DNA from: Cheilinus undulatus
Lineage: Eukaryota > Chordata > Actinopteri > Labriformes > Labridae
Direction of reading: 5' to 3'
DNA length: 64,000 bases
Assembly: GCF_018320785.1 (NCBI RefSeq)
Contig: NC_054882.1
Span: forward strand, 31,438,719 to 31,502,718
Position numbers and translations under genes: made by a program. Shown here piece after piece: positions 21,974 to 61,427 of this stretch; within the stretch, counting starts at the first letter, position 1; each line of letters begins with the position of its first letter. The notes under the pieces were generated by a model. The model searched no databases, had not been told where the DNA came from, and saw only the letters and a program-made list of their open reading frames with translations.

Positions 21974-24900
21974 ATGACTCCATCACTGTGGGGACTGCTG
22001 TGGTTTTTCAGCCTCCTGTCACGGGGGACTCTAGGAGCTAACCCTCAGTCTGGGCCGCAGAGCCGCCGGCAAATTCACTCCATCAGTCCTTCACTTCCAC
22101 GGGTTTCCCCACAGGCTCCTCCGAGGGTCCAACAGCGAAAACATGATATCAAAACTATTGAGCAAACGTTCGACGAAGAACCGAGTGCTGAAACCTTTCA
22201 GGAGCTGCAGCTGACTGGGCATACAACTCAAGACTTCCAGGAGCAGCAAGGAGCGCGACCAGGTGAACACGGCTACCTGACGCAGGAGAGACGCAGAGCT
22301 GGGGGTTAATTGGTGGACGTTTCATACGAGTTTGTTTACCTATCCACGTGCTCTCCATGCTGTGAATGTGTGTAATATTTTAGTGTCAGAACGGAACAGC
22401 AGAGGGGCTGTTAATCCACTTAAAAGGTCAAACTAAATCTAATAATCTGTACTATTTTCGTTGTTTATGCATGTAAACTTAATTTGTTAATTCACGACAA
22501 CTGATAATGATAATTTAAACCAGTGTTTATCAACGGGTGGGTTGGGGCCCCTAGTGGGTCATGAATGATGTATCTAAGCTCTAAGAGGACATACATCTGT
22601 ATATTTTATTGAACTCTTCCTGTGGTGGGGTGTACATTTTGGTAGTCTTCTTGAGATCTAAACTTATGTTAATATTTTGTGATAAAAAGATGATTTTCTT
22701 ACAAAAATAAGCACCAACCACCAGCCAAATGCAGGTACTTTTGAGCAGTTTTAGAATCTGCCCAACTTACGATCCTATAAGAAGCCTTACCTGACAGTTA
22801 TTTTGTTAAAGAAAAAAGTATAAATTAAACCCAGTTTTTGATTTTAAAAAAAAGTTTTGGGCATTTAGATTTTTTTTTATCCCCCAGCCATAGGCAGGTA
22901 GAAGACAAATTCCAACCCTGCTAGCTAAAGATCTTTAGAAAATAAACAAAAAAGTACTTTATCACTCAGGCTGACCCCAAATAGTTGGATATTGGATGAT
23001 TTGTTTGGAAGAGCCTCAGACGACTGCCAATGTCATTGTTAACACCTACTTATGGAGCAAGGATCTTTCTATTCTAGCAAAATAAGACTGTAAAATGTCT
23101 AATTTGACATTTGTCTTTTTTCCAGTTATTTAATGTCTCATAGCCTATGGTAAAAGTGTAAAGTTATTAATACATTTAAAGCAAGTCTGAAAAGAATTTC
23201 ATTGCTTTTATTTATGAACTTATCACCATCCAAACTCAGTAAACTAATTAATGATCTCAACTCACTGTCCTGCTCTCTTAGACACCTAAGGTCAGTGGTG
23301 TGGTGTCCCATGTTGAACCTTAGTCTTCTTAAGAGATTTTATGATAATTTCTCCAGCTAAAGCTGTCTATTTTTCTTGCACTATCAATTTTAGATTGCTG
23401 CGTTATGCATAAGTAACAATCCTGCAGTATATCACATGCAGATCAACTGTTGTGATGGCTTTGAATTGGGTCACCATTTAAAAACGAGAGTGTGTTACCT
23501 GTGTAATTTTTTTACATGTAAAGCTGAAGAATATTGACATTAGATCAGTAAATAGAAGCCGTAGCTTGACCTGGTGGGTGAATCACTGTTAAGTGAAAAG
23601 AGCTGAGCGAGGTGTGGATAGTACATTAAAGGAATCCAGCTATTGATTGACTATATAAAATTTTTGACAAATTGTTCCTAATAATTCACAAAAAAAATGT
23701 ATAAATAATATTTTGATTTAAATATTGTTATTATTCATAAAGATTATGTGCTTTTGAACAAACTGCTAGACAGTCTTTTGATTAACATGTTGGAATTAGA
23801 CCATATTATGTGTGGCATGTCCCAAGTTACTACCTTTGTCTGTATGAAAAAAGGCTGGTGCAATTTTTACAAGACATGAAAAATGAAATTGCACTCTTAA
23901 ATATCTCAAGTGTGTGACATAACAATCTTGGGTACAAAATAATGGAAAGAAACATTAATTAACACAAAAAGAATAGCATGTTACATTTGGGTCATATTGT
24001 ACAGATCAGGTAAAAATTGTATTTCCAATCTAATATTTGTAATTGTGAAGAAAAGGCAAGCTATTCAAATAGATAGTTATAAAAGCAAGGTTATTATTGA
24101 ACCATCTTCAAACATGAAGTTAACACTGGGTTTCTTTCAGATAATCATCTGCTTAGCTCTTTAAATCAGATGCAGTGTTAATACAGGAGAGATGCAGACC
24201 AGGAGAGCTAAATTAAGTAAACATTTTCCACAGTCAGAAATATCAAGCAACTGATTTTATAAAGCAGAATTATGTTTAGGTATTATTCTTCATTTGATCA
24301 AGATATAAAACATAAATAAGCTGTAAATTGCATCCATATTAACTTCAGTCTTGTTCAAACAGTACTAAAGACAAACTAAATTGATCTCATAACATTGTGC
24401 CCAGTGCTGCTTGCATTATTGTTTAGAGACAAGCATTTATCCACTGTATTGAAGCCCAAACATGCATATTTGTAGGCAACTGGCAGTATACTGTATCTAA
24501 TGTATCCACAGACTCTCGTCAACGCTTGCCAAAAAAGTTTTTGAATATAATTTATGTCTTTTGTTTTTTTTCCCCACATTGAAAAAGTGTCATGAAATTA
24601 TGCATGGATTCAGCATTATACTACAATTTCTCTGCCCCCCCCCCCCTTTTTATTAAAGGGAGCTCTAATTCGAGGTCTCAGCAGGCCTCCCCCAAACGGC
24701 CACCCAAGAGAAACCAGCCACAACATAGAGCTACACCTGGTGCACTGTGGGACTCTGCGAGAGACTCCAGAGGCTCTCCTGCACCGATTAGAGCCAGCGC
24801 AGGTACTTTACTTTAGCTACAACCAACATGTTCTTATTCAACTCTGTACCTAAAGCTTAACTTTTCTTAGAGAGAGAGGTGGGTAGCTTTGAGGAAAAAA

Positions 24901-27900
24901 AGGTTGGGAACCACTGATCTACTGATCTAGTACATTTCTGCTTTATGTATTTGTACAGTACCTATAAAAGTATTTACCCCTTGGATGTTTTACCCTTTTA
25001 TTGATTTTATAAAATTGCTTTTTTTTTTAAACAAAAGAATACAATAAACCTCTCTACTGTCAAAGTGAAAACAGATTTCTACAAAGTAATGCCAGTTAAA
25101 AATAGGCCATGTACAATAAGTGACTGCATTAATATTCCACCCTTCAAGTCAGTATTTAGTAGATGCACCTTTGGGTGATAGTTCTCAATCAGGCTTGCAC
25201 ATCTGGACACTGCAATTTTACTCCTTCCATGCAAAACTACTCAAGCTCTGTCGGGTTGCATGGGGATCGGCATGAACAGCTCTTTTCAAGTCCAGCCACA
25301 TATTCTCTATTAGACTGAGGACTGGGCTTTGACTCGGCCACTCCAGAACATTCACTTTGTTGTCCTTAAACCTTTTCTGTGTAGCTTTTGTTGTATGCTT
25401 CCGGCCATCGTCTTGCTGGGAAAAATCTTCTGCCAAGCTCTAGTTCTCTTGCAGACTTTACAAGCCTTCCAGGGCTGGCTGCTGAGAAGCATCCCCACAG
25501 CATGATGCTGTCACCACCGTGCTTCACAGTGGAGATTTTTTGTTTGTAGTGATTTGCAGTGTTTGTGTCCACCAAACATTGCATCTTGTCTGATGGTGAA
25601 AAAGCACCATTTTTGTTTAATCAGACCAAAGAACTTTCTCCCACTTGCATCTCCCACGTGCCTTTTGGCAAACCCTTGTTGAGATATAATGAGTTTTCTT
25701 TAACAGTGGCTTTTGCTGTACGCTTTGGGCCACTGGCTTGCAGGAAAATAAATCGTCTTCCAAGCCCCGGAAAATAAACATCTTCTGAGCAACACATAAA
25801 CTGAAAGAGGAGCTGTCGTGTAATTGTTAAAAGAAAGCTAAGAGCAACAAACCTAGAAAGAGTTACAAATTTTAAACAATACATCCGTCACTGCCCACAT
25901 ACTTATACACTCCTCTGCCCAGCTGTTCTGTTGTAGTTTATGTCTCTGTGCCCTGGAGAACAAACATGATAATGATAATGGTTCTCCCAAGATAAAGCAA
26001 TATTTCCTCTGAAAGTTCTGTCATTTTTCAAATTATTCTTCTCTATCATGTTTTGTTGCTCTGGCTTGAACCGTTGGCTACACTGCCTAACAGTGCCCCT
26101 ACAATTAGCATTGGTATTGCAATGTTTGGTCCGTATCTGTAGGATTCAAGAAAACATGCAGAAAAATGAACAAAATGAACAGAATAAGGATAGGAAGCAC
26201 CTTCCCTAATTGTGTATGTTTCCTAAAGAGCGTTAATAAGCCTGCAGAAGACAAGATTTGCATTCTGATTGGTTGTGAGGCTAATTGCTAAACCAGATAA
26301 TGACATTCCTATATCACTTGAAACATCTTTCATTTCTAAACCTTTGTGTTTTTAACAGCAACAAGGTCCAACTGCAGAAACCGGCCCATAGACCTGGTGT
26401 TCATCATTGACAGCTCCCGCAGCGTCCGCCCTGCTGAGTTTGAGAAGGCCAAAGACTTCCTGGTGGACATGGTGGACAGCCTTGAGATTGGCGTTGATGC
26501 CACCCGGGTTGGCCTGGTCAACTATGCCAGCACGGTGAAAATCGAGTTTCTACTAAAGACTTATTTTGACAAATCGGCCCTGAAGAGGGCGCTGGCCCAG
26601 GTGGAGCCCCTTGCTTCAGGCACCATGACAGGCATGGCCATCAAAACTGCCATGGAGAAAGCTTTCACCTTAGAGGCGGGTGCCAGAGCCGGCAACACGA
26701 ACATTGCCAAAGTTGCCATCATAGTGACAGACGGGAGGCCGCAGGACAAGGTGGAGGAAGTATCAGCGGCAGCTCGGAGTTCTGGGATCGAGATCTATGC
26801 GGTGGGAGTAGACAGAGCCGATATGGCGTCCCTCCGTCTCATGGCCAGCCAACCACATGATGATCATGTCTTTTATGTGGAGACATATGGGGTCATTGAG
26901 AAGCTCACTTTCAAATTTAAGGAAACCTTGTGTGGTAAGGATGATGATAATGGGAGTGCGGATATTCCATTAAATGGCCAAAATGGTGAATATGGTCTAG
27001 GCTTAGACCACAGAAAAGACCCTAATGGAATGAATATTAAAAATCCAGATAAAGGAAACAATGGTATGTCAGTTCTATCTTTTAATGCACTTGTGATTGT
27101 TTTGGCAGCACCATAGAGAGAATCTCCTTTTTAAAGTCGCTGGTCCTCTTCTTTGGTTTTACAATCAGTGACAGAAAAAATGTAGAAAAAGAGGTAGAAA
27201 AAATACTTTCTGCCTCTTGTTGTGTTTGGATTTCAAACATTTAGGACCCTGTTATTTGCCTTGCACAAAGCGTTATGCCATGCAGGGCAGCTGTCTTCCC
27301 CCCTTATTTCTTAATTAAGTTACACTGTTGTTTAAGTGACAGTGTTTATCATTCATCTTTTTTATCGTTTCTGATTATGTGGGAATGCGTCAGTAAAATA
27401 TAACTGAAAATCCTCCATCATGATATTGCGTTAAGAGTGCTGTGTGTTGAGTGACATAATGATGGGAGAGAAGTTTAAAGAGCTTTCTAGAGTTCAAGTC
27501 ACCAGGTCCCAGTATAATCAAAGTGATTGCTGTGTTTGAATCCGAGGCACACAGCCAAGCACATTCCGGTGTGTGTTGGCCTCCGCCAAGCTTCCCCTTA
27601 TCTTCAATTCTGCTCCTTCAGCCAGGGACCTCCAGCAGGCACTAGGGCTGTTTGTAGCTGAGTGCTAAGCAGTCAGGATGAGGGTCAACACCTTCAGGTC
27701 CAGAAAACAGTGGATTGCTCTTTTCAGGTGGGGAGGGTGTCTTTGCCCCAAATGAAGGAGTTCAAGTATTTTGGGGTCTTGTTAACGAATGGGCCACAAG
27801 AATGACAGGCAGATTGGTGCAGCATTGACAGTAGTAAACGTTGTACCATGCTGTCTTGTCCAAGAAGGAGCTGAGCCAGAAGGCAACACTCTCAACTTAC

Positions 27901-30900
27901 TGGTTGATCTTTGTTCCAACTCTACTAATAATAAGGAATTAATTTTTAAAACCAGATAAATTATCTAACACTTCTTAATCTAAGTTTCTAAATCTTAGTA
28001 AGCACCAAATAATTTGCAGTGTGAAAGGAGATAGTTGAGGTGGTTCAGGTGTCTGATCAGGATGCCTCCTGGTCGTCTCCCTGTGGAGGTCTTCCGTCCG
28101 ACTGGAAGGAGACCCCAGGTTAGACTCAGGTCTTGCTGGAGGGATTACATATTTCATCTGGCCTAGGAATGCCTTGAAATTTCCCAGGAAGAGCTGAAAA
28201 ATGTTGCTGGGAAGAAGGATGTCTGGGTAGACTTGCTTATGCCTGCTGCCACCACAACCTGGCCCTGGAAGAAAATGGATGGATGGATGTTAGGGTTAAT
28301 GCAGTACAAAACAATGCATGAGTGTACTGGGATTACTTTTTGCCTTTTCCATCCAAGGAAAGGGGATTTAGAAGTGAGTATACTCTTTGAAGACTAAAAA
28401 GTACATTGCTATACTCTATTAACCTCAATCGCCCTTCACTGCACTACTGGACACGCCCAGAATCACCATGCCTCACACGCCTTTACACCCTACATGCAAA
28501 ACAGGGCCCTGAAATGTTCACTTACTGTTGATGGGGACAAGAAGTCTGCAGTCAACAACAAATATCAACAATGTGTCGTGTATAAACCAAATAAAGAAGA
28601 AGCCAAGCTGCAGATCACTGGGTAATCTGCTGATTCAGATCAAACTTTAGTACTTTAAAATGGTTGAATCTCGTTGTGGTGCTGCCTTTACTTTCACAGT
28701 GGGCATGCTGCTCTTTGCTCTCAGTGCTGCAGCTTGCACCTCATGCTGCATCTTCCAGCTTATTTTCCATGATTTGGGCTTACACGTTCACCGACATTAA
28801 TGGCTTGTTAATCTGCACGGCAAGAACTAGACTATATTTAAGTGAGATATTTTAACTGAACATTATTTTACAGACTTTACAGATAAAAACCTTTTCTAAA
28901 ATGTGTATAACTATGCACAAAGATTGATATTTAAAGATGCTTATTATAATGTTAAGTCAACAAACTTGTTTTACAGAAAACTTAAATGCATTGGGATAAA
29001 CACTTGTCACCTTTAATGCACCAAAAAGGAAGAAAACTTTGAAATACTGATCCATTTTTTTCTGAAAATATTTAATAGTGTTAACAGAAGGAACTGCATG
29101 GATTAAAATAACTATTCACAAGTTAAGAAATAGTTTAAAAAGTCACCTAATTGTGTCTGGTTTAATTTTGGGTACTTTTTAAAGCAGCAAAATAACCACT
29201 GAGGTTACTCATCCTAATCATACTAATTTTTCCCTGAATCTATTGCAATCATGCAAATTGGAAGTTGTAAAACATTGTTATTCATAAACAAAGAGATAAC
29301 AGACAAATTAGTCTCTTTCAAATAGAATTTTTTTTTTTTAGTTTATTCAGCTTTGGAAATCCTCCATCTTTAATGGTACAGCAGGTTATTTAATGCAGTT
29401 TGGATCATGCAAACACAGAATTTTCCAGAATTGAACGCTCTCATTGAATGTATTGGTTATGGAAACTGTTGGTTTAGTTTGAAAGTGGGCTTAGAACGTA
29501 GTCCTCAGAGACAATTGTCATAAAAAACAAGCTATAGGACTTGAAAAACCTTTCCCAACTTTACAAAAAACCCCACTATTCTCTAGTTAAATTTTACAGT
29601 AGGTATTTTTACCCAGCAAGAAAAATACAAAGTCTACTCATGCTATAATGAAGACGTACCATGAGAGCTCTCATTTTAGCAGATTTTGTGTTTGCGTGAT
29701 CTGAACTGCATCAAATACACCTTTAGTGTGCTGGAACACTGGGATGGATAGTTGTGAAAGTTAGACAAATTAAAATGCCTTGGTCTTGGCCTTGGTCGTC
29801 TTGTTTCATGAATAACAGTGGGTTTACAACAAAAGTGAATTTACTGTAACATCACTTCATGATGCACAGCAAGCTAATCAAGCTAATTAAGCTGCATGTG
29901 GTCCTTTGGATTAGGACCTTCACAATAATTCACTTACAATAAGCTAACAAAGGACTGCTGATTTTTCTTAAGCCAATCAGACAACAGATGATCTCTTTGC
30001 AGGTTTGGATGCTTGTGTTCTCGGACACAGCTGCCAGCAGATTTGTGTCAGCAATGAAATCTCGTATGACTGCCAGTGTCGTGCTGGATATGTCCTGAAC
30101 CCCGACAAGAAGACATGCAAACGTAAGAATCTTTATCTTTTCATAAAATAGTTTTATGGCTCAGTGTTACAAATCTAATTTTGATTTTTATTGAGTCATT
30201 ATTAAAAACACCAAGGTACAAAGTTAAACAAAGTTGAAAGTTTAATTTTGTTTCATTCTTGCCGATAATTTGGGATACGATTGAAAAGGTCTTTTTATAT
30301 TTAGCAAACAGTGTTCTTGATGTAGAAACTTTTGAAAGACTCTGACAGTTCTCTTTGGTCAGACATTTTAGTGAACTGCAGACACGTTACACACAAGTTC
30401 TTCTAACTGATGTTTTGTGTTGCAATCAAAGATCAGAGCTTGCACTATTCATCACAAAATGAACAGAGAGGACACATAACAGCGTAAACAGAGGGACATA
30501 AATTTAGAAGGAGATACTGGTCACTCATAAAATGCCTTCTTACCAGAGGTTTACCACTTATGATACTTATTCTGCCTGAGGCTGCACAGAGTTGTCAGAG
30601 GGTTGCAGAGGAAGAGGAAAACAGTTAGGTCTGAAGGACAGGAGGGGGCTTCAGGAACCTCAGAATTTCATCTCTGCTTTTTGCAGATGATGTGGTTCTG
30701 TTGGCTCCCCCAGCAGACACTGGGGCAGTTTGTGCTGCTAAGTGTAAAGCAGCTGGGATGAAGGTCAGCACATCCAAGTCTGAGGGCCAGGGTTCTTTGC
30801 TGGAAAATGGTAGATTGCTTGCTCTCTTTGGATGGGGAGTGAGTGATTTCCTCAGGCTGAGGAGTTCAAGTATCTTGGGGTCTTGTTCATGACTGCAAGT

Positions 30901-33900
30901 ATAATGGGCAATGAAATACAGGCTTATGTCCAAGGAGAGCTTAGAGTAGAGCCACTGCTCCTTTGCATTGAACAGAGTGAGTTGAGGTGATTTGGGCATG
31001 AGGCCTCCTGTTTGACCCCCTGTGGAGGTCTTCCAGGCACCTCTAACAGGGAGGAGACCTTGGGGAAGAAACTGCTAAGGGATTATAAACTAAACACTAA
31101 AAGTTAGGAAATTTGTGTTTGGTAGATTATTTTTTGTTGGAACAATTCATCTTGGCAATAAAGCTTATACCCTTGGAAAGTCTGTTTTTCCCCTATCAAA
31201 CAGTGCCACATTTGTAAAGAACATGCATTTGTGGGATAAGAAGAGGAGCTGAGTATGGGGTTGCATCCATGAAAAATTTGCCAAATCTTCTTTGCCAATG
31301 CCAAACAGCTTATTCTGCCATTGACTTTTGTTAGGTGAACTGGAAGATTGCAGCCTGAAAAAACAAGACAAATTGGCAATTTTGTAATTTTTTTGCTTCA
31401 GTAGTGTGTGTAAGAACCATACACAGCCACAACAGCCTGGTGCCTCCTCCTTATGCTGGTCACCAGCCTAGTCAATCACTACTGTGGGATGGCATCCCAT
31501 TCTTCAACCAGCCAATGTGGTTGTGCTGGTTACTCTGGCACAAACAGCAAGCCCAAGCTGATCGCATAAGTGTTCAACGGGGTTGAGGTTGTTCCATCTG
31601 CTCCACACGCAGTCTCTGGAGGTAGTCTCTGATAAACCCCGCTTTGTGGGGGTGAGCGTTGTCATCTTGGAGGATAGAGTTCGATACCAGGCATCCAACT
31701 GCAGTAGGCAGAATTTGGACTCATCACTGAACATAACAGGTGCTGATCAGGCACCAAAATTTGTCAAATGTTTCATTTGAGCAACCCACAGCTCTGCTGC
31801 TCATCCCACTAATGCATGTACTTTATAAATGTGGCACCATTGAAAGGGAAATAAACAGGCTTTCCAACAGTGAAAGATATATTGCCAAGGAACAAGCAAA
31901 ACATAGAACAAGATGGACTTAATACAAATTATGGCTATCACTTCGGGATGCACAAATTGTGGTTTTAGGGTTTAAAAGTGAGTGGTAACAATTTGCACTT
32001 TGTCCTCACACTTTTGAGTTTCTTGAATGTGAAAGTTTTTCATTCCAGTTTCAGATTCATGTGTCCATGGACATGAATGCCAGCATATTTGTGTCAGCAC
32101 TGATGAATCCTACATCTGCAAATGTGAACAGGGATATGTGTTAAATACAGACCAGAAAACTTGTTCACGTAAGGCTTTTAAGGTTCTTTTCCTTTCTTTT
32201 GACCTGTCATTTCCCCTGTTCTTCCCTGGACTCTGCATGTTTTCACGGTACACTGTGCACAGAAAAACTTATGATACTCTGAACTTAACTAAAGGACTTC
32301 ATGTTACTTGTTGCAGTCTTGTCTTCAGGTTTATGCTCTCTGGGACATGACTGTGAGCATATTTGTATCAGCACTGATGATTCGTACATCTGCAAATGTC
32401 CAATGGGATATGTGTTGAATGCTGACCAGAAAACATGCTCGCAAAAGAATCTGGACTTTTCAGGTAGACTTTTTTGATTCATTAAATCTGAAGAAATACA
32501 TCTGGGAGTATGTGATGTGAGTCAGTCTGTTTGTGAGGGGGCTGAGGGAGAGACTGAACATGTTGCAGCTTAAAGAGAATGCTAGATTTTGAAGATGTTT
32601 GACAGGTGATTTGATTATGGCACATTTCAGGTGTGAAATCAGCATGCTAGTAGGCATCACTCCATTTCTGCTCCTTTGATTAAAATCTATGCTGGTGATG
32701 TCAATGTTAGTTGTGGAAGTGTCTCTTTTCAGGGTTTGACCATGTGAAACCATGTGACCACGGACATGACTGCCAGCATATTTGTGTCATGAATGGTGAT
32801 TCATATCTTTGCCAGTGTCATGAGGGATATGTATTGAATGCAGACCAGAAAACATGCTCACGTAAGACACTTTTCTCTATACATGTACTCTACCTGCCAA
32901 AGTCAGGCTACGGTGTCTTGACTTTTTGAGATTGTATTCTTGGATGGATTGAAAGTTTTGCTGTTTTCTACTGCAGAGATTGCATTTGCTGAGCATCAGA
33001 TGGCTATGTACTCTTCTTTGGCACCACCTTTGGATGTTATCAGACCATTAAACCAGTGGAAGCCCCATCTCCCGGGTAAAAACCATACCATCTCTTGACA
33101 CAGAGTTCCTTGCCCATTAGACTATCCTATCTTAGGGTCTACTAAGACAAGATTTAGGAGCAGGAGGCCCATAGTACCACCAATTCCAACAGCTGGTCAC
33201 CTTGTGATTGAAGAAGTTTCAGGAGGTGTCTAAAACAGAGTTTAAACAGTGTCCCATCCAATGGCCAATGTCATGGAGGAGGTTAGGTTTATGACTAATA
33301 CCGCAGCCAGACAATAGGGGGAGCGCTAAAAATTGTCTTATTATTTAAAGGGCTTTGCATTCATCTGTCTTTTTACATAGCCATTAAAATAAACAGAGCA
33401 AGTGCATGTTGTTTAATGCTTCCAAAGTCTACGGGGCAACTATATGACAAAAAGCATTATTTCTGATTTTGTATGAAGATATACTGACAAGATGTCAAGA
33501 TAGAGCTGTTATTCACCAAGCTAAAGATGTGTTTGGGCACTGTCTGGGTTTGTAAAGGTCTCAAGTGGGACCATCTATAATTCAGTGAAGTTCTTAACAA
33601 GTTGTGGGCGTGTCTTTTCAGATTCAGATTCATGTGCCCAAGGACATGACTGCCAACATATTTGTGTCAGCACTGATGACTCGTACATCTGCAAATGTGA
33701 AGCGGGATATTTATTAAACACAGACCAGAAAACTTGTTCGCGTAAGCAGCGGTGCTTTTTGTTTGCTTTTAAAAATTGTCTACCCTAGCTTTACCAAAAA
33801 GGCAACATAATTGAATCTAACTTTGGAAGTGTGTCTTTTCAGTTTCAGACTTATGTACCCAGGGACATGACTGCCAACATATTTGTGTCAAAAATGGAAA

Positions 33901-36900
33901 TTCTCAGCTCTGCATGTGCCATGAGGGGTACATGTTGAATGCAGACCAGAAAACATGCTCACGTAAGAACTTCAGTTATAATCTGTGTGTCTGATTTGGG
34001 TGTTTTGCTGTAGAAAACCACAGTCACTATAATTGTTAACCGCAAGAGGGTTTTGGCTTGGCCATTTACTGACGATGTAGAGTCACTTGGGGCCTCGATG
34101 ATGATCTGTCATGTTTTGATTTGTTTCAGTGACGTTGATACTTTGAATGATTAACTTTGCCCCAGCTTATCAATATGAAAAACCATTTTAGATACAGATA
34201 TGTGTAGTTGGATGTCATCAGCACAGTAGTGGAATCAATTTAAATAGACTAAACTTGTACCAAGAATAGAGTTTTGAGGGACTCCACTGCAATGTTTTTT
34301 GGATTTAGTGTTGCTTAGTTCACCATCCAGAAAACTGCAGTGGTTTTTAAGGTGTCTTAAATCAAGAAAAGATGCTCAAGTAAGAACCTGGACATGATTT
34401 CAGATTTGATTCACATTTCTGGGTATGCTTTACCCTTCATTTTTCATGGGTTCAAAAGAAACTCTATATGGCAAATTTATTCTACATGTTCCAGAGCTTG
34501 ATGATCCATGGTGTCAAGTAAAATGTAAGTGTTTCTTTTCAGGCTTAGTTTTGGATGCATGCGGCCAGAGACATGACTGCCAGCACATTTGTGTCAACAA
34601 TGGGAGTCTGTATATCTGCAAGTGTTATGAAGGATATGCATTGAATGCAGACCAGAAAACATGCTCACGTAAGACCCTGATTTGTTTCAATTTGCATATG
34701 TTGTTTCCATGATGTTATCCAGCACTTGGGATCTTCTACAAAGCAAATGCTTGGAGTCTTAGACACTAAATGCTCCAACTGGAGAGTTAGGGTGTTGTTA
34801 CAACTTACCCATTTGGTTTGGTTAAAACTACCTTGAGTCTGCCAGTTAAGTGCAGTTTTTTGTGCTGGTGTGGAACCTTCCTTGTTGCGGCCTGCACCAA
34901 GATGTTGTGAAAAATGGGTCTTATCCATTTTATTTTAGACCATTGCTGTTTGTTTGTAGATGCCAGCTAGTTGTACATCTACTGGGGTAATTGGAATACT
35001 CACTGCATCTTTGGAAATAATTTTAGTGGAAGAGAAAGTCGTGGCCTTCAGCAAGTCATTAACATATTTTAGATCCACTGTTGCACCTCATTTTAAATGG
35101 CATCATTTGCCTGCAGTAATAAACACAAACAATATAAAAATTAGTGACCTGGGCCAGCCTTGTGTAGTTGTCTGTCAATTCTGAATTTGGAAAGTGGCTT
35201 TGGAGCGGCCACAGACAGGCAGGAGTCAATGAGTCTTTGTTTACTAATGGGATTTTTTCCAGCAAGAAATTTTGACCAATTAGAGAGAATGTTCCTCACG
35301 CATCACACATTTTGGTAAATGTTCCCATGTAGATACAGACGAGACTTGAGGTAATTATGCAACAATTTAACAAGTTGGTTGATTCAGAACAGAGCAAACA
35401 AACTATAGGTGTGAAAACAACGGTAGAGATCATTAGGCACTTAGTCATATTGATTTCTTTCAGCGTGAATGAGCAGGTGACATGGAGACTAGAAATGTCT
35501 TCGTCACAGGACTTGGACATGTGCACTGAAAAAGAGTTATGAATTTCAAATCTTGCGACTGTAATTAAGGTGCAGCTTTTCTTTTGCAGGTTTAGTTTCA
35601 AATGCATGTGCCCAGGGTCATGAATGCCAGCACATTTGTATCAACAATGGGGACTCATATATCTGCAAATGTAATGATGGATTTGTGTTAAATACAGACC
35701 AGAAAACATGCTCACGTAAGCACCTGCTTTCGTTGAATATAAATGTTTAGTTTCCATGGTTTGATCAGATACTTCAGCAATTACTACAGAAGAACATTTA
35801 TGTTATCCATAGCTAAGTTAGCTTTAGCAATGTGACCTATAGCAAACAAAGCTAAAGCTAACTTAGCTATACGGATAATGTAGATATGCAGCTTCGTAGC
35901 TTCTTTGTGAGCTTAGCTCTTGCTCCGTAAGCTACGTAGCTACCCTATCTACGCAGGTAATGGAGCTACGTAAGTTACACTAGTTGCATTGAAATGTTTT
36001 CAAAGAAGACAAGCTTTGTTTCCTGTAAGCAGACTGTTGGTTTGGCTTTGTTAAACATTTCGTAATCAGGTTTTGCAGGTGAGTTTTTTGACTTAACTCT
36101 TGGTATCCTAACCCTTACCTCAACCTTTACCCTAACCCTAAACAGAAGATTAATCCGATTTTATTTCAACGTTTTAGCGTCTGTTTCCATTCTGAGATAT
36201 ACAGCGCTTCAGGTTAACAGCTGTGAGAGTGGCCGTCAGAGATGAGCCAGCTGCTTCCAGACTGTTTTGGAACATCTGGAGTTCTGAAAGGTTGCTCTAA
36301 CCTCGCAAAGCAGATGGATTCGCCCATTTCTGTGTTTTTTTCACTGGCAAATCCATCTTGCAAAGCTCCCATCTAAACAGATTGGGCCCGGTTAGAAAGT
36401 GACAGGACCAATCAGTGCTGAAGGGGCAGTAATTTCGGGCGCAGCGGAGTCGGGACATAAGCAAGCAGCGACAAGAGACCAGTGCAAATATGGCAGAAGA
36501 CATCAGCGTGGATGCTGCTGTAGCACCAGCTTTATCAGAACTTGATGATATTTCTTTGTTAGAAGAAGAACAAAGAACAACACTGAGTTGTTTTCTTTTC
36601 AAAAAAGACAAAAGTCTACAATCGCTGTGGTTTGCTTTATGCAGCTTTCTATGGATTTTACTCCTTGGTAGCGGCTACGTCCCGTGTTCTGTTGCTCTAA
36701 TTGGCCCGCAAAGATGTGACAGACAGAATGTTCATCCAATCAACCTCTGAGTTTTTTTTTCAAAGGCTCTGCCCTTTCCCAAACACCGTCTCTGGAAGGT
36801 TTCCCAGATCGGAGTGTGAAACACATTCATCTGGCGTGTCAGGTTAGGGTTGCTCACCAAAGCCTAAAAAGTTTTATCTGTTGAGAAGGCATATTAGAGT

Positions 36901-39900
36901 AGTTAGTCCTGTGTCACCACAAGTTTTCTGAATGTATTCAATTTTTATGATCTGCAAAATTGAACAGGGAATATAGAGATTATGAATATTGTAATGTTTT
37001 GGTCATATAGCTTAGAAACCAGCTTATATTCAGAGAAAACTGCAATCGAAGGTGCTCAGAAAAGGCATATGAATGTTTTCACAAGATTCTGCTATTGATG
37101 TGCAAGCTTTTCCTTTTCAGGTTTAAGTTTGAACGCTTGTGCCCAGGGACATGACTGCCAGCACATATGTGTGCTTGATGGTGACTCCTATATCTGCAAA
37201 TGTAATGACGGATATGTATTAAATGCAGACGAGAAAACATGCTCACGTAAGACACTTTGCACTCTTTTTGTTTTTATGTGCATAACAAGTATCCATGCTT
37301 TGATCCAGCACTTTAAATATTTCTTATTGCAGCAGATTTGGAGTTTCAAGGGATTATTCAACAAAGCACCAAAGTTTCAACTGGTGAGCGACAATCTTTT
37401 GGCAGTTAGATACTGGACACACCACAAGCCTTTTGGATATTTATTCCATTTTCACAGCCAGCAAGAACAAGCAGAAGATACAGAGGACTGGAAATGCTGT
37501 AAAGTTTTGGTCAAAGGGCTTAACATGTGCTTCTTCTTAATGGAACTGTGCCAAATGATCCGCAACAACCAGAGTGAATGGTTTTAATGTCATAAGACCA
37601 AAAAATTAAGATGTAAGTTTTCTTTTTAGATGAGAGTTTGAAGGGATGTGCTCAAAGACATGACTGCCAGCACACTTGTGTCGACAATGGGGATTCTTAT
37701 ATCTGCAAGTGTCATGAAGGCTATGTATTGAATGCAGATCAGAAAACATGTTCACGTAAGCACCTGATTTGACATTACTTTCAGATTTTTTGACCATGGT
37801 GATATAGCAATTTGCGTTTAGCATGTACACACATTTTGACTTTTAAAGGATGGTTCAACAAAAAAGCACTTAAATGTTATGATTGATACCTAAGGCTTTG
37901 ACGTATGCATCTTTTAAGAGTGTAACCTTTGGTGCTCCATCAAGCTGTATGAATTTGACTCTGTTATTGAGGTGTGAGCTTTCCTTTTCAGGTTTGGGTT
38001 TGAATGGATGTGCCCAGAGGCATGACTGCCAGCACATTTGTGTTGACAATGGGAACTCGTACATCTGCAAGTGTAATGAAGGATATGTATTGAATGCAGA
38101 CCTCAAAACATGCTCACGTAAGCTTCTGATTTGTTTTAAGATCCATGCATGGTATAACTTTTGGAAGTCCAAGGGAAGCTTCACTAAACTACCAAAAGCT
38201 CCATCTTAAAGTTGAATATGGTAAATTATGGGGATTCTTATAGCTGCAAGAGTCATGATGTCATCTTACATTCTTGAGGTATGAATGAATATGAAGGAGA
38301 TATAAAGATAGGGAGTCTTCAAACCCAGGGCTATAACATACACCAAGCTTCCTTGTATGGCACTGTGACCAAGGCTCTGCACCAGCAATGTAAACATTTT
38401 TCATATAATATGATGAAGAAGTAATGTACATTTTTCTTTTCAGGGTCAGGTGCAGATGCGTGTGCCCAAGGTCATGACTGTCAGCACATTTGTGTAAAAA
38501 GTGGAAGCTCCTTCACCTGCAAATGTCGAGTGGGATATGTATTGAATATGGACCGTAAAACATGCTCACGTAAGAAAGTTTCCTCTTACATTTAAAGACC
38601 GCCAAAGCTACATAAAATGTTATTTCACCATGTTTTTCCAAGGGACATCATTAGTACCAATAGGATGATGATGCAGACCTCTTTGCCCTTGAATTACCTA
38701 CAGTGCCTATAGAAAGTATTCACTCCCTTGGATGTCTTACCTTTTTACTGATTTTATAACTCAATCATGGTCATGGCTTTTTTGACAAGAAAATTCAAAA
38801 AACCTCTTATATTTCAAAGTGAAAAATGATTTCTAAAATGTCATTTGGATTAAAATATGTAATCTAGAATGAGTGGCTACATAAATAATCAGCCCCTTAC
38901 GGTCAGTATTCTTTAGATGCTTCTTTAGCTGCAATCACAGCACTGAGTTTGGATAGGTCTCAGCTGGACACTGCAATTTTGCTCCATTCTTCTTTGCAAA
39001 ACTGCTAAAGCTGCTGAGAAGCATATCCACAGCATGATGCTGCCACCATCTTCCTTCACAGAGGGGGTGGTGTGTTTGTTGTGATGTGCTGTGCAATAGC
39101 GTCTTTTCTGATGGCCCAAAAGCACCATTTTAGTCTCATCAGATCAAACAACTTTCTTCCACTTGGCCGTGGAGGGAGTCTCCTACATGCCTTTTGGTAA
39201 ACTCTAGTTGAGATTTAATTGGAGTTTTCTTCAACAGTGGCTTTCTCTTTGCCACTCTCCCATAAAGCTTTGACTGGTGAAGAACCAGGCAACAGCTTTT
39301 GTATGCAGTATCTCCCATCTCAGCTGTTGAAGCATGTAACTCCTTAGGACTAGGCGTCTTTGTGGCATCTCTCACTAGTGTCCTTCTTGCATGCTCATTC
39401 CTTTTTGTAAGGACCACCTGATTTAGGCAGATTTAAATCCTTCCATTTCTTGATGACGGAGTTAATTGAACTCCAGGGAATGTTCTCTGCCTTGGAATTT
39501 TTTGTGTCCATCTTGACTTGGACTTTTCAATCACCTTTTCTCTGAGTTGCTTGGAGTGTTTCTTCATCTTCATGGTGTAATGGTAGCCAGGAATACTTAA
39601 TAACCTGTCACTGGAGCTTCCAGGCACATGTGTCTTTTCACTACAATCAGTTGAGACACATTCACTGTTCTGAGATGATCTCCATGTCACTAACTGTGAG
39701 AATACTAGCACTGATTGGCTAGACCTCTGTTGAATTAGGTCAGTCACAGTAAAGGGGGTGAAGATTTTATGAAATCACTTATTTTACCTTAACTATCTTT
39801 ATTTAATGGACGTTACGTTTTAGAAAACTGTTCTCACTTTGACAGTATTTTTTTTTGCAATTTTTTAATGTTTAACAAACAAATTATATTGACTATAATT

Positions 39901-41607
39901 GATTTATAAAAGCAATTAATGAATAAAACATCCAAGGATGTATATAATTTTTGGAGGCACTGTACATCAAGTCAGTCGTGAGTGTTTCTTTCCAGGCTCA
40001 GATGTATGTGCGAGTGGACATGACTGCCAGCATGTTTGTGTCAACAATGGCGACTCGTACAGCTGCAAGTGTCGAATGGGATATGTGTTGAATGCAGATC
40101 AGAAAACGTGCTCACGTAAGCTTTTGGATTTCTGTCAATATATTTCAGAGTTTCTTTATATTAAAACCAAGGTTGTCAACATTTTTGATACTTGGATGCC
40201 TTTTTGATGCCATGGGCTTGATATTTGTTTGATAGTACTGATGTTTTAGAGAAAAATAATTTTAACCCAGAGATGCTGTGTGTAGAGAGAGACACGCAAA
40301 CAGCAATGGGGAATCAAATGAGAGTGAGCACTGGTGTCCTGTTGCCAAAACACAGTGGTGAGACAGAGAGATGTTATTTCAGATTGTTTGACAGCAGTTA
40401 CTCTCTAAAGAAGCTAGAAAACCCATCACTAGCCTCTATCACCGCCAACTTTAAATTTGTTTTATTTAGTCTCTTTAGGGCCTCATTCAAATATACACAC
40501 AGTAATGTAAGCGTCCGTTTGAGACAGACCAAGAGCAAAGGAGAGAAACAGAACTGTGTCCTGGTCCCTAAAAGTTTTCCTTATCATTGAATTGCTGGTT
40601 CATCTAAAAAAGACAAAGTGGGTAAAAAAGTGACAAAATTAAAGATTTAATAAGGTCCATGCAAAAAGATGAAAAAAAAAACTTAATTTGGAAGGTACAA
40701 AGTTTGGAAGGAAGGAATGTAGGTAGGAAGAAAGGATGGAGGGACAGAAGGTACATTGCAAGGTAGTGGTGCTGATAAGAAAAGAGGTTGGATAGAAAAA
40801 GGAAAGGGTGCCGACGGTAAGGTTTAAGCCAGAGAGAAGTTTGGTCAAACAACTCCAAAAATATGGTTGTAATTGATTTGTCTATAATCTGTTATGATTG
40901 TATTTTTCAGGGGAGTGGTATTAAATACATAAGTGAGTATATTGTCAAAACAGTGTCCAAATCGTATCCTCTATAATGCTATCCACATCTGATTTCTGCA
41001 ATAAAGGCTGGGAAGTGACTGATAGACTTCTAACCCAATTTCTAATCTCATTTACTAAAGAAAAGGAAAATCAATTTTTTAACATAGTATTTTTTCCGTT
41101 CATCATTCAATAGCCTTATGAATTAATGTCTAACTTTAACCTGGCAAAACATGGACTGGATGTGCACTTTCTTCTGCAATGCCTCAGCTATGTTGAACAT
41201 TCACTTAAAGCATTTGACTTTCTGTCTTTTCCTTATTGTTTCAGAGGAAATGAGGAGTGAGATAACTGAAGATGCCTGCATGTGTGAAGCTCAGATTTTG
41301 TTCCAGAAGAAAGTTCATACGACTATTCAGGAGCTGAGCAGAAAAAATATCCTTTTTTGTTTGGAATACTGAGATATTATTTAAAACTGATACATGTTTG
41401 TGTTTGCTTAGGAAGGTGCTATAATTTTGTCTTTTTTTTTGTTTTCAATAATGGAAAGTTGAATTTTAAGTTTTATTTTGCTGTGCTGTACTCTCATAAA
41501 TGCCTGGTTTCTTGATGAAATGGTGAAACTTTATTTCCTTGACTGTATGTTCACTTGATGAACTTTTAGATAAAGTGAACCTCATCGAGGGTCAACAGAG
41601 GTACTAA
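21974..41607 (+). CDS. matn3: Matrilin-3 with one VWA and thirteen EGF modules (18 exons, complete)
   Basis: Secreted cartilage-matrix adaptor. Coding exons: 21974-22262 (signal peptide), 24659-24802 (basic, Pro/Arg-rich linker), 26359-26934 (VWA), thirteen EGF exons 30003-40115 (listed separately), 41245-41346 and 41555-41607 (coiled coil). All junctions are in phase, and the model gives 931 aa plus TAA. The signal peptide [21 protein letters not shown] is clear. The VWA has the MIDAS motif DSSRS with TDGRPQD and closely matches mammalian matrilin-3. The C-terminus ([16 protein letters not shown], then [14 protein letters not shown]) matches the matrilin coiled coil. The wdr35 neighbour supports matn3 over other matrilins. 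Mammalian matrilin-3 has four EGF modules, so the array is strongly expanded. The VWA exon has an alternative in-frame donor. The share of EGF exons used in mature mRNA is unknown. Confidence 0.93.
22521..22600. repeat. hAT-like left terminus in matn3 intron 1
   Basis: CAGTGTTTATCAACGGGTGG followed by GGTTGGGGCCCC and GTGGGTCATGA resembles the start of hAT elements that begin CAGTGGTTCTCAAC. A possible partner end lies at 24900-24916. Confidence 0.45.
24659..24802 (+). other. matn3: matn3 exon 2, basic Pro/Arg-rich linker
   Basis: A 144-nt phase 1-1 exon between a C/T-rich tract ending TATTAAAG and donor GTACTT. It encodes 48 residues such as [19 protein letters not shown]. The phase fits both exon 1 (ends CCA G) and the VWA exon (starts CA ACA AGG). 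In mammals the signal-peptide exon is joined straight to the VWA exon, so this exon would be extra. It lies between two hAT-like termini (see Findings). No transcript evidence is available here. Confidence 0.7.
24899..24916. repeat. hAT-like right terminus in matn3 intron 2
   Basis: AAAGGTTGGGAACCACTG reads on the other strand as CAGTGGTTCCCAACCTTT, a common hAT-type terminus. Flanking 8-mers do not match those at 22513-22520 (ATTTAAAC versus ATCTACTG), so pairing with the left end is not proven. Confidence 0.45.
24956..25745 (-). mobile_element. Tc1/mariner-type transposon, truncated
   Basis: Starts CAGTACCTATAAAAGTATTT after a TA. The minus strand carries transposase pieces: [17 protein letters not shown] (25366-25584 area) and [20 protein letters not shown] (25218-25436 area) with the third acidic residue. 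Frame breaks and an internal deletion make it inactive. The right inverted repeat and the transposase N-terminus are missing. It lies in matn3 intron 2. Confidence 0.8.
26359..26934 (+). other. matn3: matn3 VWA-domain exon
   Basis: 576 nt, phase 1-1. It encodes [16 protein letters not shown] (MIDAS DxSxS), [11 protein letters not shown] (MIDAS Thr), [12 protein letters not shown] (MIDAS Asp), [10 protein letters not shown] and [14 protein letters not shown], ending KETLC plus one base at the strong donor GTAAGG (26935). The reading frame stays open beyond it to a second donor at 27064. Confidence 0.92.
27640..28300 (+). mobile_element. Non-LTR retrotransposon 3' end (LINE)
   Basis: The plus strand has GAGGTGGTTCAGGTGTCTGA, GGATGCCTCCTGG and CTGGAGGGATTACAT, and ends in tandem GATG units (about 28275-28290). 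This is the well-known 3' end of a LINE abundant in fish. The 5' part (27660-27900) holds GCAGATTGGTGCAGCATTGA. An internal deletion joins them. It lies in the matn3 intron before EGF1. The exact clade is not assigned. Confidence 0.7.
30600..31085 (+). mobile_element. LINE reverse-transcriptase remnant
   Basis: The plus strand reads [15 protein letters not shown] (about 30677-30721), the catalytic FADD box of non-LTR reverse transcriptases, followed by [14 protein letters not shown]. The 3' part (30900-31080) repeats the CTTGGAGTAGAGCC and GAGGTCTTCC pattern of the element at 27640-28300, so it is the same family. The frame is broken. It lies between EGF1 and EGF2 of matn3. Confidence 0.75.
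31130..31905 (-). mobile_element. Tc1-like element with long (about 130-bp) inverted repeats
   Basis: Sequence at about 31150-31280 is the imperfect reverse complement of about 31755-31890; shared pieces include CTTGGCAATA, GTGCCACATTT and CATGCATT. Between them the minus strand encodes a degraded DD34E transposase end (FSDESKFCL, then [14 protein letters not shown]). The central part of the transposase is deleted. It lies between EGF1 and EGF2. Confidence 0.7.
34790..35335. repeat. Dispersed repeat, copy A (matn3 intron, EGF7-EGF8)
   Basis: Shares many blocks with 53030-53700: TTTGGTTTGGTTAAAA, TTGCCTGCAGTAATA followed by an AATATAAAAA stretch, TTGGAGCGGCCA and CATCACACATTTTGGT. Probably a nonautonomous DNA transposon. 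No coding frame was recognised. Ends are approximate. Confidence 0.5.
35802..35880. repeat. Long near-perfect hairpin
   Basis: Arm TTATCCATAGCTAAGTTAGC (continuing CTTTAGC) and its inverted partner GCTAAAGCTAACTTAGCTAT (continuing ACGGATAA) flank a loop of about 22 bases. It lies between EGF8 and EGF9. Confidence 0.65.
36301..36843 (+). mobile_element. Kolobok-like nonautonomous element, copy 2
   Basis: Starts CCTCGCAAAGCAGATGGATT after CTAA and ends with ATCTGGCGTGTCAGG before TTAG, so the ends read as inverted TTAA-CCT termini. An internal frame (36490-36750, plus) begins [20 protein letters not shown] and contains [18 protein letters not shown], then loses similarity. This looks like the first part of a helicase with the ATPase motifs deleted. 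It lies between EGF8 and EGF9. Confidence 0.6.
38227..38262 (+). pseudogene. matn3: Relic EGF exon fragment in matn3
   Basis: TATGGGGATTCTTATAGCTG followed by CAAGAGTCATGATG closely matches the middle of EGF10. The second Cys codon of the CKC motif is AGT, and an in-frame TGA follows soon after. No acceptor or donor of the array type flanks it. It lies between EGF11 and EGF12 and looks like a decayed module. Confidence 0.6.
38701..39962 (-). mobile_element. Tc1/mariner-type transposon, near full-length
   Basis: Inverted ends CAGTGCCTATAGAAAGTATT and (other strand) CAGTGCCTCCAAAAATTATA are flanked by TA on both sides (38699-38700 and 39963-39964). The 1262-bp body holds a broken minus-strand transposase, with [18 protein letters not shown] near the N-terminus (about 39570) and [14 protein letters not shown] further on. 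It is inactive through many stops. It lies between EGF12 and EGF13. Confidence 0.9.
41245..41607 (+). other. matn3: matn3 coiled-coil exons split by a U12-type AT-AC intron
   Basis: Exon 41245-41346 encodes [20 protein letters not shown], with the two cysteines used for trimer disulfides in matrilins. The intron 41347-41554 starts ATATCCTTTT and ends TTCAC, with TTCCTTGAC (41535-41543) as a U12 branch site about 11 bases before the AC. The last exon, 41555-41607, encodes a heptad-like stretch ([12 protein letters not shown]) and TAA. Matrilin-1 is one of the classic genes with an AT-AC intron at this place, so this is family-conserved. Confidence 0.9.
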
Positions 41608-44300
41608 GAAGCCCAATCAAGATTCCAGAAGACGTCCTGGATGCTAAAACATTTTTATCAGAAAAGTAATCTGTTAATTGTCTTGAAGTGTTGGTAAAAA
41701 TGGTAGTTTGTTGCTTTATTACGCAATGTGCTGTACACATTATGGTTTTGTGATATATATATATTTGCATTTTCTCATTTACACTGACAGTTAATTAAAT
41801 ATTTTTAAACTGTTAAGTCAGGGATGACTGGTAATATTGTTTTAATACCTCTGTATATTTGTAATAAAAGGTTTCATTACATATTAATGCTGAAAGCTCT
41901 TGAGACAATGTTGTGCCAACTTATGGCTCTTTTAAGTCTTTCCTGGAAAAACGAATAAATAAAAATGTAAGAGGTAAACACTGTCAGCAGGAATGATTCA
42001 TCACACATCCCACTGATCTATTACACCCCTCACACTCTCCGCTGTATCAACCAATCACCATTTATCCCAGCTCTTGGATTTTTCAGGCCCACGCTTGAAA
42101 CCGAAGGGTATGATGAAATTCCCACCATTCATCACCTTTACTTGCAAAATGGCACAACGGGCCATGAAGCAGGTGCATAAATGTAAATATTTTTGGCATT
42201 TATGATTGATTACAGAAAATATTACAGTGTTTTTTCTCATATATTCAATCTTAAACTACTGGGGATCTGCCATGTGTGATGATGAACAGCAATCAAGTGG
42301 CATCTCATTTCTTAGGGGAATGTTTTTACCCTTACCCCTTTACCACTCTGTTTCAAAGGGAAAGGGTGAGGGGTAGAAATGGGACTGGCTCTTAATATCC
42401 TGCCCACAACACTATCTGAGTGGCTTGATGTGTCACAGAACTACCAGCCAATCAACACTGAGGTCTGAGTGGCACTGATACAGAGAGTGTACAGCACCAC
42501 TTCCTGTTTCCTGTTGCAGTGTTGCTCTGTGATGTTTCTCATGTTGACAGAGCTAGTGCTATATTTATTTTCCTTACATTTTTAACATGCAGTTTTACTT
42601 TTGCCACATTAAATGTCTTTTGTTTGTCATAACAAATGCCTATTGATTCCAAATTTTGATTATCTGTTACATACACTACCAATAATCAGAATCGATATTG
42701 GCCTGAAAAACCAATGTCGTTGGACTGTTAGACACAAGACACATGCAAACTCACTACCCTTATTGCTGTTGAGTGTTATCTTGATTTCTACAGTCCATCT
42801 TCACAGCGTTGCATGCCACACTCTGGAGTGAATTACGCCCTGTCTAGTCAATCTTTGTGTTTCTGCGGCACACACTGCAGTCAGTCTCTGACTCCGCTTG
42901 TGAAACACACCAAATCGTTTTTTTGACCGGCTGCTGCCAGCACACATCTATCCAAGCAGAGTCGATCAACTCTGACAGGAAGTCAAGCATCAATTTCAAA
43001 ATAGAACACCAGGTACCGACTACCAATCTTGTATATCATTGTTTTATCATCATTACGTCAAAACAGGAAGCAGACCTAAAGGAAGCCCCACTAAGACCTA
43101 AACTATTGACGATAATTGGGAGATTATAATGAAAACTTTTTAAAAATTCCATTTGTCCATTCCATTTGTCATAGCCTACTGAATATTTTTTGGTGAAACT
43201 TGTTGCACCTCATTTTTGCTGTATATCCAGAGCTCTGAGAACATTTCTCCATCAGTGACGGTGCTTTATGGACAGAAGCCTTCTTCCGTGACCGCAGCTC
43301 ATTTACTAATCTCTTTCAACAACAGGAGCATTGTTGCTACCCTCCTGATTGCAGCTCCATTACACAGAGAAAAGCCCCTCCAAAAAGAGCCTGATCCACT
43401 TTGCCCACAGGGGTGTTACATCACAGTGTATTACTGTAATCCTTTCCTTTGATATCTGAAATATTTCAATAACTTCATCGCACACCAATTATTGTTGGTA
43501 ACAGGCTGGTACAGTTGTTTTAGGGGGAGAGGAGAAACAATCGCTCATTTGTGGCCATTTCACAGTTTTTCAGCGCACGTTTTGGAACATGAGTTTGGGA
43601 GTTAAGATCAGCTCAAGCTTTTGTGACCAATCAAAAGAGTTGTTCACGGTATCTGACTCAGTACAACACATGCACATGTTCTGTATTTTCTACTTTTTCA
43701 TGCTCTATGGAACCACAAACAGATAGTATATGATCTGAATTGGTGCTTTTGTAATTAGAAAAACTTGCTTGCATTGTTTTTCATGTTTTTCATGATTGCA
43801 TATATATATTACATGTTAAATATTCTTAAACTATTAATGTTATGAAAATCTCATTATGAGTTGTTTTTTTTCGCTGTCTTTTAAATTAGGTTTGTAAGTC
43901 ACCCATAAAATGATGATACAGTTTACAACTAATCTGTTAAAAATAATGTCTGAGAGTAGATAACTGTCATCACTCTGTATATTTTGGCTATCATCATAAA
44001 TAAATACAAACTTGTATCAAAATGTTCTGATGTCTTGTAGTTCTTTTCTTTTTTAAGGTTTCATTATTATAGCATAATGGTGGATTATTTAACAGTTCTA
44101 CTTTTAACCAATTAATAGGTCCTTTTTTCAACCATTATGGTTGTTTTGAGAAAAGTGGGCAAAAGAACAAAGAAGTGTCCAGTTTTATAGTTTTATAGTT
44201 CAATATAAAACAAAAATACAAAACACATCTAAAATTAATGTCACATTTTAGCGTGGAGCAAACGAATACGGAAGAAGATCAAAAGAACTACAACTACCAG
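41608..44300. other. Intergenic region, matn3 to wdr35
   Basis: Starts with the matn3 3' UTR (to about 41.9 kb). The rest is AT-rich, with patches that look like old repeats (42100-43450) but no assignable element and no conserved coding exon. The genes are in the same orientation. Confidence 0.5.
41863..41868 (+). terminator. matn3: AATAAA polyadenylation hexamer (matn3)
   Basis: Canonical hexamer 256 bp after the matn3 stop. Another AATAAA lies about 90 bp further on. Confidence 0.5.

Positions 44301-44718: not shown

Positions 44719-61427
<16,709 letters not shown>

Follow-up and report, generated by a model that had tools for sequence, protein, structure and literature searches.

An intact array of thirteen EGF exons in a matrilin-3-type gene of the wrasse Cheilinus undulatus

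Mammalian matrilin-3 is described with four EGF-like domains (PMC4849044), a count not matched by a gene of the humphead wrasse, Cheilinus undulatus, that otherwise resembles it and has thirteen EGF exons. The locus raises the questions of whether the array is a sound part of a protein-coding gene, to which matrilin it belongs, and how a gene might use so many modules. We examined them in the window, meaning the whole 64 kb stretch of DNA that was analysed, and in annotated proteins from other vertebrates. To our knowledge, the function of the EGF repeats of matrilin-3 is poorly settled.

Thirteen intact EGF exons lie at 30003..40115 on the + strand, all of them phase 1-1 and all with AG/GT borders, bounded by a single VWA exon on the 5' side and a matrilin coiled coil on the 3' side (Table 1). 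Spliced in silico, the exons of the gene, which we call matn3b, gave an open frame of 974 residues in which all introns were phase 1. The EGF exons sum to 1632 nt, a stalk of 544 residues. A strict six-cysteine EGF pattern had 13 matches in the six frames of the whole window and none in each of 20 mononucleotide shuffles. Pfam found 13 stretches of FXa_inhibition (E 3.3e-89) and 13 of cEGF (E 1.8e-72) in the spliced protein, along with one VWA and Matrilin_ccoil (E 6.4e-12), and the domain set of the matrilin family (one or two VWAs, EGF modules in variable number, C-terminal coiled coil) was completely present. The array is real, intact and protein-coding. A sequence-only reading of this DNA had claimed thirteen in-phase EGF exons without stops, and exon borders, cysteine pattern and Pfam all bear this out. 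Its coordinates were exact, and its phases and exon count were correct; the stalk that it put at over 500 residues is indeed of that size, and the usable exons give about three times the mammalian length, the tripling that it had proposed.

Table 1 Features of the matn3b gene in the window
Feature	Position	Strand	Remarks
matn3b exon 1	21974..22262	+	Start codon, hydrophobic signal-type start, N-terminal segment; GT donor, phase 0-1; identical in deposited protein
Exon 2, Pro/Ser/Arg-rich	24659..24802	+	Phase 1-1; in deposited protein
Exon 3, VWA	26359..27063	+	Pfam VWA E 3e-49; donors after 26934 and after 27063; deposited model stops at 26934
EGF1 exon, 120 nt	30003..30122	+	Phase 1-1; in deposited model
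EGF2 exon, 120 nt	32049..32168	+	Phase 1-1; in deposited model
EGF3 exon, 147 nt	32317..32463	+	Shifted donor; second in-phase AG 12 nt inside; in deposited model
EGF4 exon, 129 nt	32733..32861	+	Phase 1-1; tree group of 6 rows, 99/92; in deposited model
Linker exon, 99 nt, non-EGF	32977..33075	+	From deposited-model peptide; borders inferred from split codons
EGF5 exon, 120 nt	33622..33741	+	Phase 1-1; absent from deposited model
EGF6 exon, 120 nt	33843..33962	+	Phase 1-1; tree group of 8 rows, 100/97; absent from deposited model
EGF7 exon, 126 nt	34543..34668	+	Phase 1-1; in deposited model
EGF8 exon, 126 nt	35590..35715	+	Phase 1-1; absent from deposited model
EGF9 exon, 126 nt	37121..37246	+	Phase 1-1; in deposited model
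Second linker exon, 51 nt, non-EGF	37333..37383	+	From deposited-model peptide; borders inferred from split codons
EGF10 exon, 126 nt	37630..37755	+	Phase 1-1; in deposited model
EGF11 exon, 126 nt	37992..38117	+	Phase 1-1; in deposited model
EGF exon fragment, 31 bases	38228..38258	+	Local alignment to EGF10
EGF12 exon, 126 nt, penultimate	38444..38569	+	Phase 1-1; LNMD motif, same place in other percomorphs; in deposited model
EGF13 exon, 120 nt, last	39996..40115	+	Phase 1-1; in deposited model
Coiled-coil exon 1	41245..41346	+	Pfam Matrilin_ccoil; CMC cysteine pair precedes helix
Coiled-coil exon 2 and stop codon	41555..41607	+	Follows AT-AC intron; protein end identical to deposited model

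EGF7-12 share one exon size, 126 nt, and the ordinary donor sits four bases past the last Cys codon in 12/13 EGF exons. It is lost in EGF3, which is spliced 21 nt further on, after 32463, and so gains seven residues while phase 1 is preserved. The same shifted donor is used in the deposited C. undulatus model, and two forms from Acanthopagrus latus matched the resulting tail weakly (E 0.009 and 0.010). The VWA exon contains two in-phase donors, the longer form having 43 residues more. This acidic and Asn-Gly-rich extension (26935-27063) had a counterpart in 74/235 proteins compared at E ≤ 0.01. The coiled-coil exons are split by an AT-AC intron at 41347-41554 (ATATCCTTTT ... TTCCTTGAC ... CAC), which matches the U12-type consensus. 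Tblastn of the 13 modules found no other whole EGF module in the window (best E 0.06). The best leftover piece is the 31-base fragment at 38228-38258, within the intron between EGF11 and EGF12, in which 29/31 bases are like EGF10. Its local alignment score was 26.0, compared with a best of 15.0 in 200 shuffles of its own intron and of 16.0 in the other 11 introns, and it is either an exon remnant or a short copied-in insertion.

The best database match was a matrilin-3-like protein deposited for C. undulatus (P0001, 859 aa), the sole model of the species among the matches listed. Where exons are shared it was letter-identical to the window gene; the differences are confined to segments that are skipped or added and to the codons at their junctions. 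P0001 contains 10/13 EGF modules (EGF1, 2, 3, 4, 7, 9, 10, 11, 12 and 13) and is without EGF5, 6 and 8. It also differs from the full frame in using the short VWA donor and in two extra linker exons (32977-33075 and 37333-37383), both phase 1-1 and without EGF cysteines, for which there was no match among 234 other proteins compared.

We surveyed EGF number across vertebrates in three protein searches, taking from each the best 120 matches (of 1355, 1203 and 2376), which were representatives of 90%-identity clusters and subject to length limits. Modules were counted by regular expression, and the counts per species refer to the listed rows, some of them partial, rather than to gene maxima. Among the best 120 matches of the first search the counts ran from 4 to 14. 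Both rows with 14 EGFs, and one of at least two rows with 13, were quail, turtle and emu proteins with two VWAs, two of which are named matrilin-2. Many percomorphs have annotated models of at least eight EGFs, up to 13. Single-VWA examples had 12 EGFs in Labrus mixtus, 13 in Micropterus salmoides and 12 in M. dolomieu; Dicentrarchus labrax, also with a single VWA, had 11 in one form and 12 distinct modules overall. Among the other rows listed, eels had 7-9 (Anguilla 7-9, Synaphobranchus 9, Conger 7), as did Aldrovandia (9) and the cartilaginous fishes (two rays with 9 each, the shark Heterodontus with 7). Further fish rows gave 7 in Umbra (mudminnow) and Dallia, 5-7 in Gadus, 5 in Scleropages, 5-6 in Clarias matn3a, 4 in Lampris, Megalops and Osmerus, and 2-5 across osteoglossomorphs, smelts and Salminus. 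The tetrapod rows comprised sloth MATN3 with 6, marmoset with 5, two further mammals with 4, birds with 4 and a frog with 3. One VWA was present in each of the eel, ray, shark, Umbra, Dallia, Gadus and sloth rows that were checked.

Annotated vertebrate rows of matrilin-3 type therefore range from 1 to 13 EGFs among the matches listed. The mammalian four lies near the low end of this wide range, and four EGFs is no family rule for matrilin-3. The sequence-only reading had named transcripts with eight or more modules, and an expansion limited to one clade, as support for its claim. The first of these we found in the form of annotated models, and models only (10 modules in C. undulatus, 12 in Labrus mixtus, 13 in Micropterus salmoides). 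The second did not hold: 7-9 EGFs were also counted in single-VWA rows from eels, rays, a shark, Aldrovandia, mudminnow and Dallia, and 6 in sloth MATN3. EGF expansion is recurrent, and the wrasse array, though large, belongs to this recurring pattern and is not new in kind. A limited search of mainly open-access literature found no report of EGF-number expansion in fish matn3. As a separate observation, a matrilin-3-type protein of the piranha Serrasalmus rhombeus (P0131) has five letter-identical consecutive EGF modules, which points either to duplication in the very recent past or to a mistaken prediction.

All EGF exons start and end in phase 1, so the frame is kept when a module is added or dropped. 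We compared which modules are included in annotated percomorph isoforms, using species picked by hand: ten for inclusion tables, eight for a run test and fourteen for counts of the first and last modules. These isoforms are database models rather than RNA reads, and their exon chains are perhaps partly computed. Across the fourteen species the first EGF was kept in 70/72 annotated forms and the last in 69/72. The first was missing from one form each in Larimichthys and Channa, and the last from one form each in Dicentrarchus, Labrus bergylta and Pundamilia. All 15 forms of D. labrax had the first EGF, and the last three modules occurred in 15, 15 and 14 of them, compared with 3-9 for each of the eight inner modules. 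The first and the last two EGFs were in every form of A. latus (9 forms), T. maccoyii (7) and O. niloticus (6), and in L. bergylta the first was in 4/4 forms and the last two in 3/4. Module order was partly ambiguous in Thunnus albacares and Channa argus, and the Scophthalmus inclusion table has a cycle in module order and columns that are not positional.

Inner modules tended to be dropped as neighbours. With the first and the last two EGFs held fixed, and patterns that skipped fewer than two or all of the inner modules left out, 29/33 informative patterns from eight species dropped a single contiguous inner run, whereas random omission of equally many modules would give an expected 6.2. Nor are the patterns mutually independent, since they include two tunas and two sea-bass patterns that differ solely in the last EGF. 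In sea bass alone, with its eight inner modules, 12/13 patterns were single runs (3.46 expected). Contiguous skips may partly reflect the way in which models are chained. The proposal that any subset of these exons could be skipped without a frameshift is sound as phase arithmetic, but annotated percomorph isoforms mostly show kept ends and the loss of contiguous inner runs instead. We also considered splice-donor strength as a cause of kept and skipped modules and rejected it, as inner and terminal EGF exons in the wrasse gene scored alike on a donor matrix (6.2-6.7, except 4.9 for EGF3 and 4.1 for EGF5).

The history of the array was examined in a tree of protein modules, which used 93 of 94 (one of 37 residues was dropped) over 35 columns and left many forks open. 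EGF4 grouped with modules of Labrus, Micropterus, Dicentrarchus, Seriola and Acanthopagrus (99/92), and EGF6 with modules of Labrus, Micropterus, Dicentrarchus and Thunnus (100/97). EGF7, 10 and 11 clustered together (92/78) near Labrus modules, while EGF8 and EGF9 formed a pair (95/85) that was not placed with that wrasse group. Modules resembling EGF1 and EGF12 formed ladders and not clades, and the group of EGF13 (83/76) included non-terminal modules. The strongest DNA self-matches within the array were among EGF7-11. The simplest reading would be an older percomorph array followed by later duplication in wrasses: symmetric phase 1-1 exons are presumably duplicated and lost readily, and EGF7-11 probably include some of the later wrasse copies. 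Among pairs of the 13 exon cores, dN/dS exceeded 1 in 0/78 (median 0.23). The modules as a set were therefore under purifying selection in the past, which does not by itself prove that each of them is in use at present.

The most durable alternative is neutral turnover, which holds that EGF exons of symmetric phase come and go because their gain or loss never breaks the frame, that their number carries little functional weight and that most annotated isoforms are splicing noise. The annotated number varies widely, from 2-5 in osteoglossomorphs, smelts and Salminus and 4 in Megalops to 7 in mudminnow and Dallia, 6 in sloth and as many as 9 in eels and rays, and the wrasse gene itself has a lost ordinary donor in EGF3, a broken 31-base EGF piece in one intron and linker exons in P0001 that are unmatched elsewhere. 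We nevertheless consider neutral turnover unlikely, if a serious competitor, given the absence of any exon pair with dN/dS above 1, the EGF4 and EGF6 groups that cross percomorph families, and module inclusion that is patterned and not random in the annotated models.

Could the gene instead be matrilin-2, in which ten EGFs are normal, under the wrong name? Some of its fish relatives do carry the database names matrilin-2 or matrilin-2-like, and a long array is what matrilin-2 is described as having (PMC6271824). The same source gives matrilin-2 two VWAs and a unique domain ahead of the coiled coil. Tblastn of the VWA found one in the window, while turtle MATN2 as a positive control yielded two, and at E ≤ 1 the whole window gave no second VWA, the gap at 40116-41244 that separates EGF13 from the coiled coil included. 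The relatives with matrilin-2-type names that were checked (P0002, P0003, P0004, P0006 and P0033) also have one VWA each. Downstream on the + strand, ORFs at 46756-47094 and 49442-49996 encode a WDR35/TULP4 N-terminal propeller. As described in PMC1464127, WDR35 adjoins MATN3 in tetrapods and lies beside one of two matn3 paralogues in Tetraodon, compared with LAPTM4B and KCNS2 as the neighbours of MATN2. With one VWA in the window and a WDR35 neighbour we rejected matrilin-2, which is highly improbable here; these two features and the matrilin coiled coil agree with the matrilin-3 identity first assigned from the sequence. Automatic naming evidently confuses matrilin-2-like and matrilin-3-like among the long fish forms. 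Among the matches listed, many of the top ones are labelled 'Matrilin 3b' and rows labelled 3a rank lower; our choice of matn3b over 3a is provisional, following these labels and the WDR35 neighbour rather than a tree.

An assembly artefact, with the array misjoined or falsely duplicated, had been named in the sequence-only reading as grounds for withdrawing its claim, and we rejected it as scarcely credible: the EGF7-11 cores are alike (mean identity 83%) and intron bases 9-58 past the donor still average 45% ungapped identity (maximum 66%), but bases 59-158 fall to 28%, near chance, all self-matches of at least 140 bases (the shortest listed) within 29501-41700 are at or below 84% identity, a table in PMC12223197 gives a contig N50 of 16.5 Mb for the C. 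undulatus assembly, and the models of Labrus mixtus (12) and Micropterus salmoides (13) also have long arrays. Misjoined duplication is unlikely because the introns diverge beyond about 60 bases.

The explanation that we favour, and regard as fairly probable, is an intact matn3b with a cassette-array EGF stalk from which inner modules are skipped in runs to give several stalk lengths. Splicing would remove contiguous inner runs and keep a short terminal set, producing matrilin-3 chains of several lengths. The VWA of matrilins binds ligands and the coiled coil oligomerises chains, according to PMC6271824. The length of the stalk would then determine how far from the coiled-coil hub the VWA heads extend. 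Such a length-adjustable stalk is plausible but unproven. Alternatively, EGF number could tune ligand capture, given a proposal reported in a review that the EGF domains and coiled coil form a BMP-2 pocket (PMC4849044). The usual N-terminal calcium-binding motif was found in 0/13 modules, so a calcium-stiffened rod should not be assumed; an Asx-hydroxylation-type pattern was found in 5/13. An AlphaFold2 model of P0001 predicted ten four-strand repeats and a C-terminal helix, with very low confidence over the linker exons, and its mean pLDDT of 52.9 is too weak to indicate the shape of the stalk. Searching solved structures returned VWA-type proteins and no matrilin among the best 60 of 63 matches at E ≤ 1e-10.

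A broader version of this account, which we offer tentatively and think doubtful as it stands, would make percomorph matn3b a length-programmable matrix adaptor in which a near-constitutive EGF1 and the last two or three modules bracket an inner bank that is removed run-wise and has been re-expanded separately in lineages such as wrasses. If true, mixed-length chains on one hub would space VWA heads differently across skeletal tissues. Some human multiple epiphyseal dysplasia is attributed to matrilin-3 mutations (PMC2726956), and fishes in which repeat number varies by gene, and apparently by isoform, offer a natural experiment on stalk length. The comparisons suggest that what makes the wrasse gene interesting is not so much its count of thirteen as the way in which inner modules appear to be used, in runs and between kept ends.

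Several other features were observed in the window. Most of the intron that separates EGF12 from EGF13 is taken up by a transposon-like element at approximately 38699-39966, which has TACAGTGCCT inverted repeats at its ends and is presumably Tc1/mariner-like; sequence related to it is present at 51714-52637, with pieces at 24952-25713. Pieces of a class C G-protein-coupled receptor (7tm_3, ANF_receptor) lie on the - strand at 6514-7497 and 15545-16513 and perhaps belong to an olfactory or taste type receptor gene. An exon with an ornithine/arginine decarboxylase-type domain is at 121-465 on the + strand, at the left edge of the window.

Compared with known matrilins, the wrasse gene shares a long EGF array with matrilin-2 (ten modules; PMC6271824) and differs from it in VWA number, in the unique domain and in its neighbour genes. 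With mammalian MATN3 it has in common one VWA, EGF repeats, a C-terminal coiled coil and the WDR35 neighbour (PMC1464127, PMC4849044), the difference being thirteen EGF exons in the wrasse versus the four EGF-like domains described for mammals (PMC4849044). It also resembles the percomorph matn3b arrays of Labrus mixtus, Micropterus salmoides and Dicentrarchus labrax, which likewise combine one VWA, an EGF array and a coiled coil, share the EGF4 and EGF6 groups, and have first, penultimate and last modules that look like the wrasse ones by place and motif. Their inner modules differ in number and kind, and at least EGF7, 10 and 11 appear to form a wrasse group.
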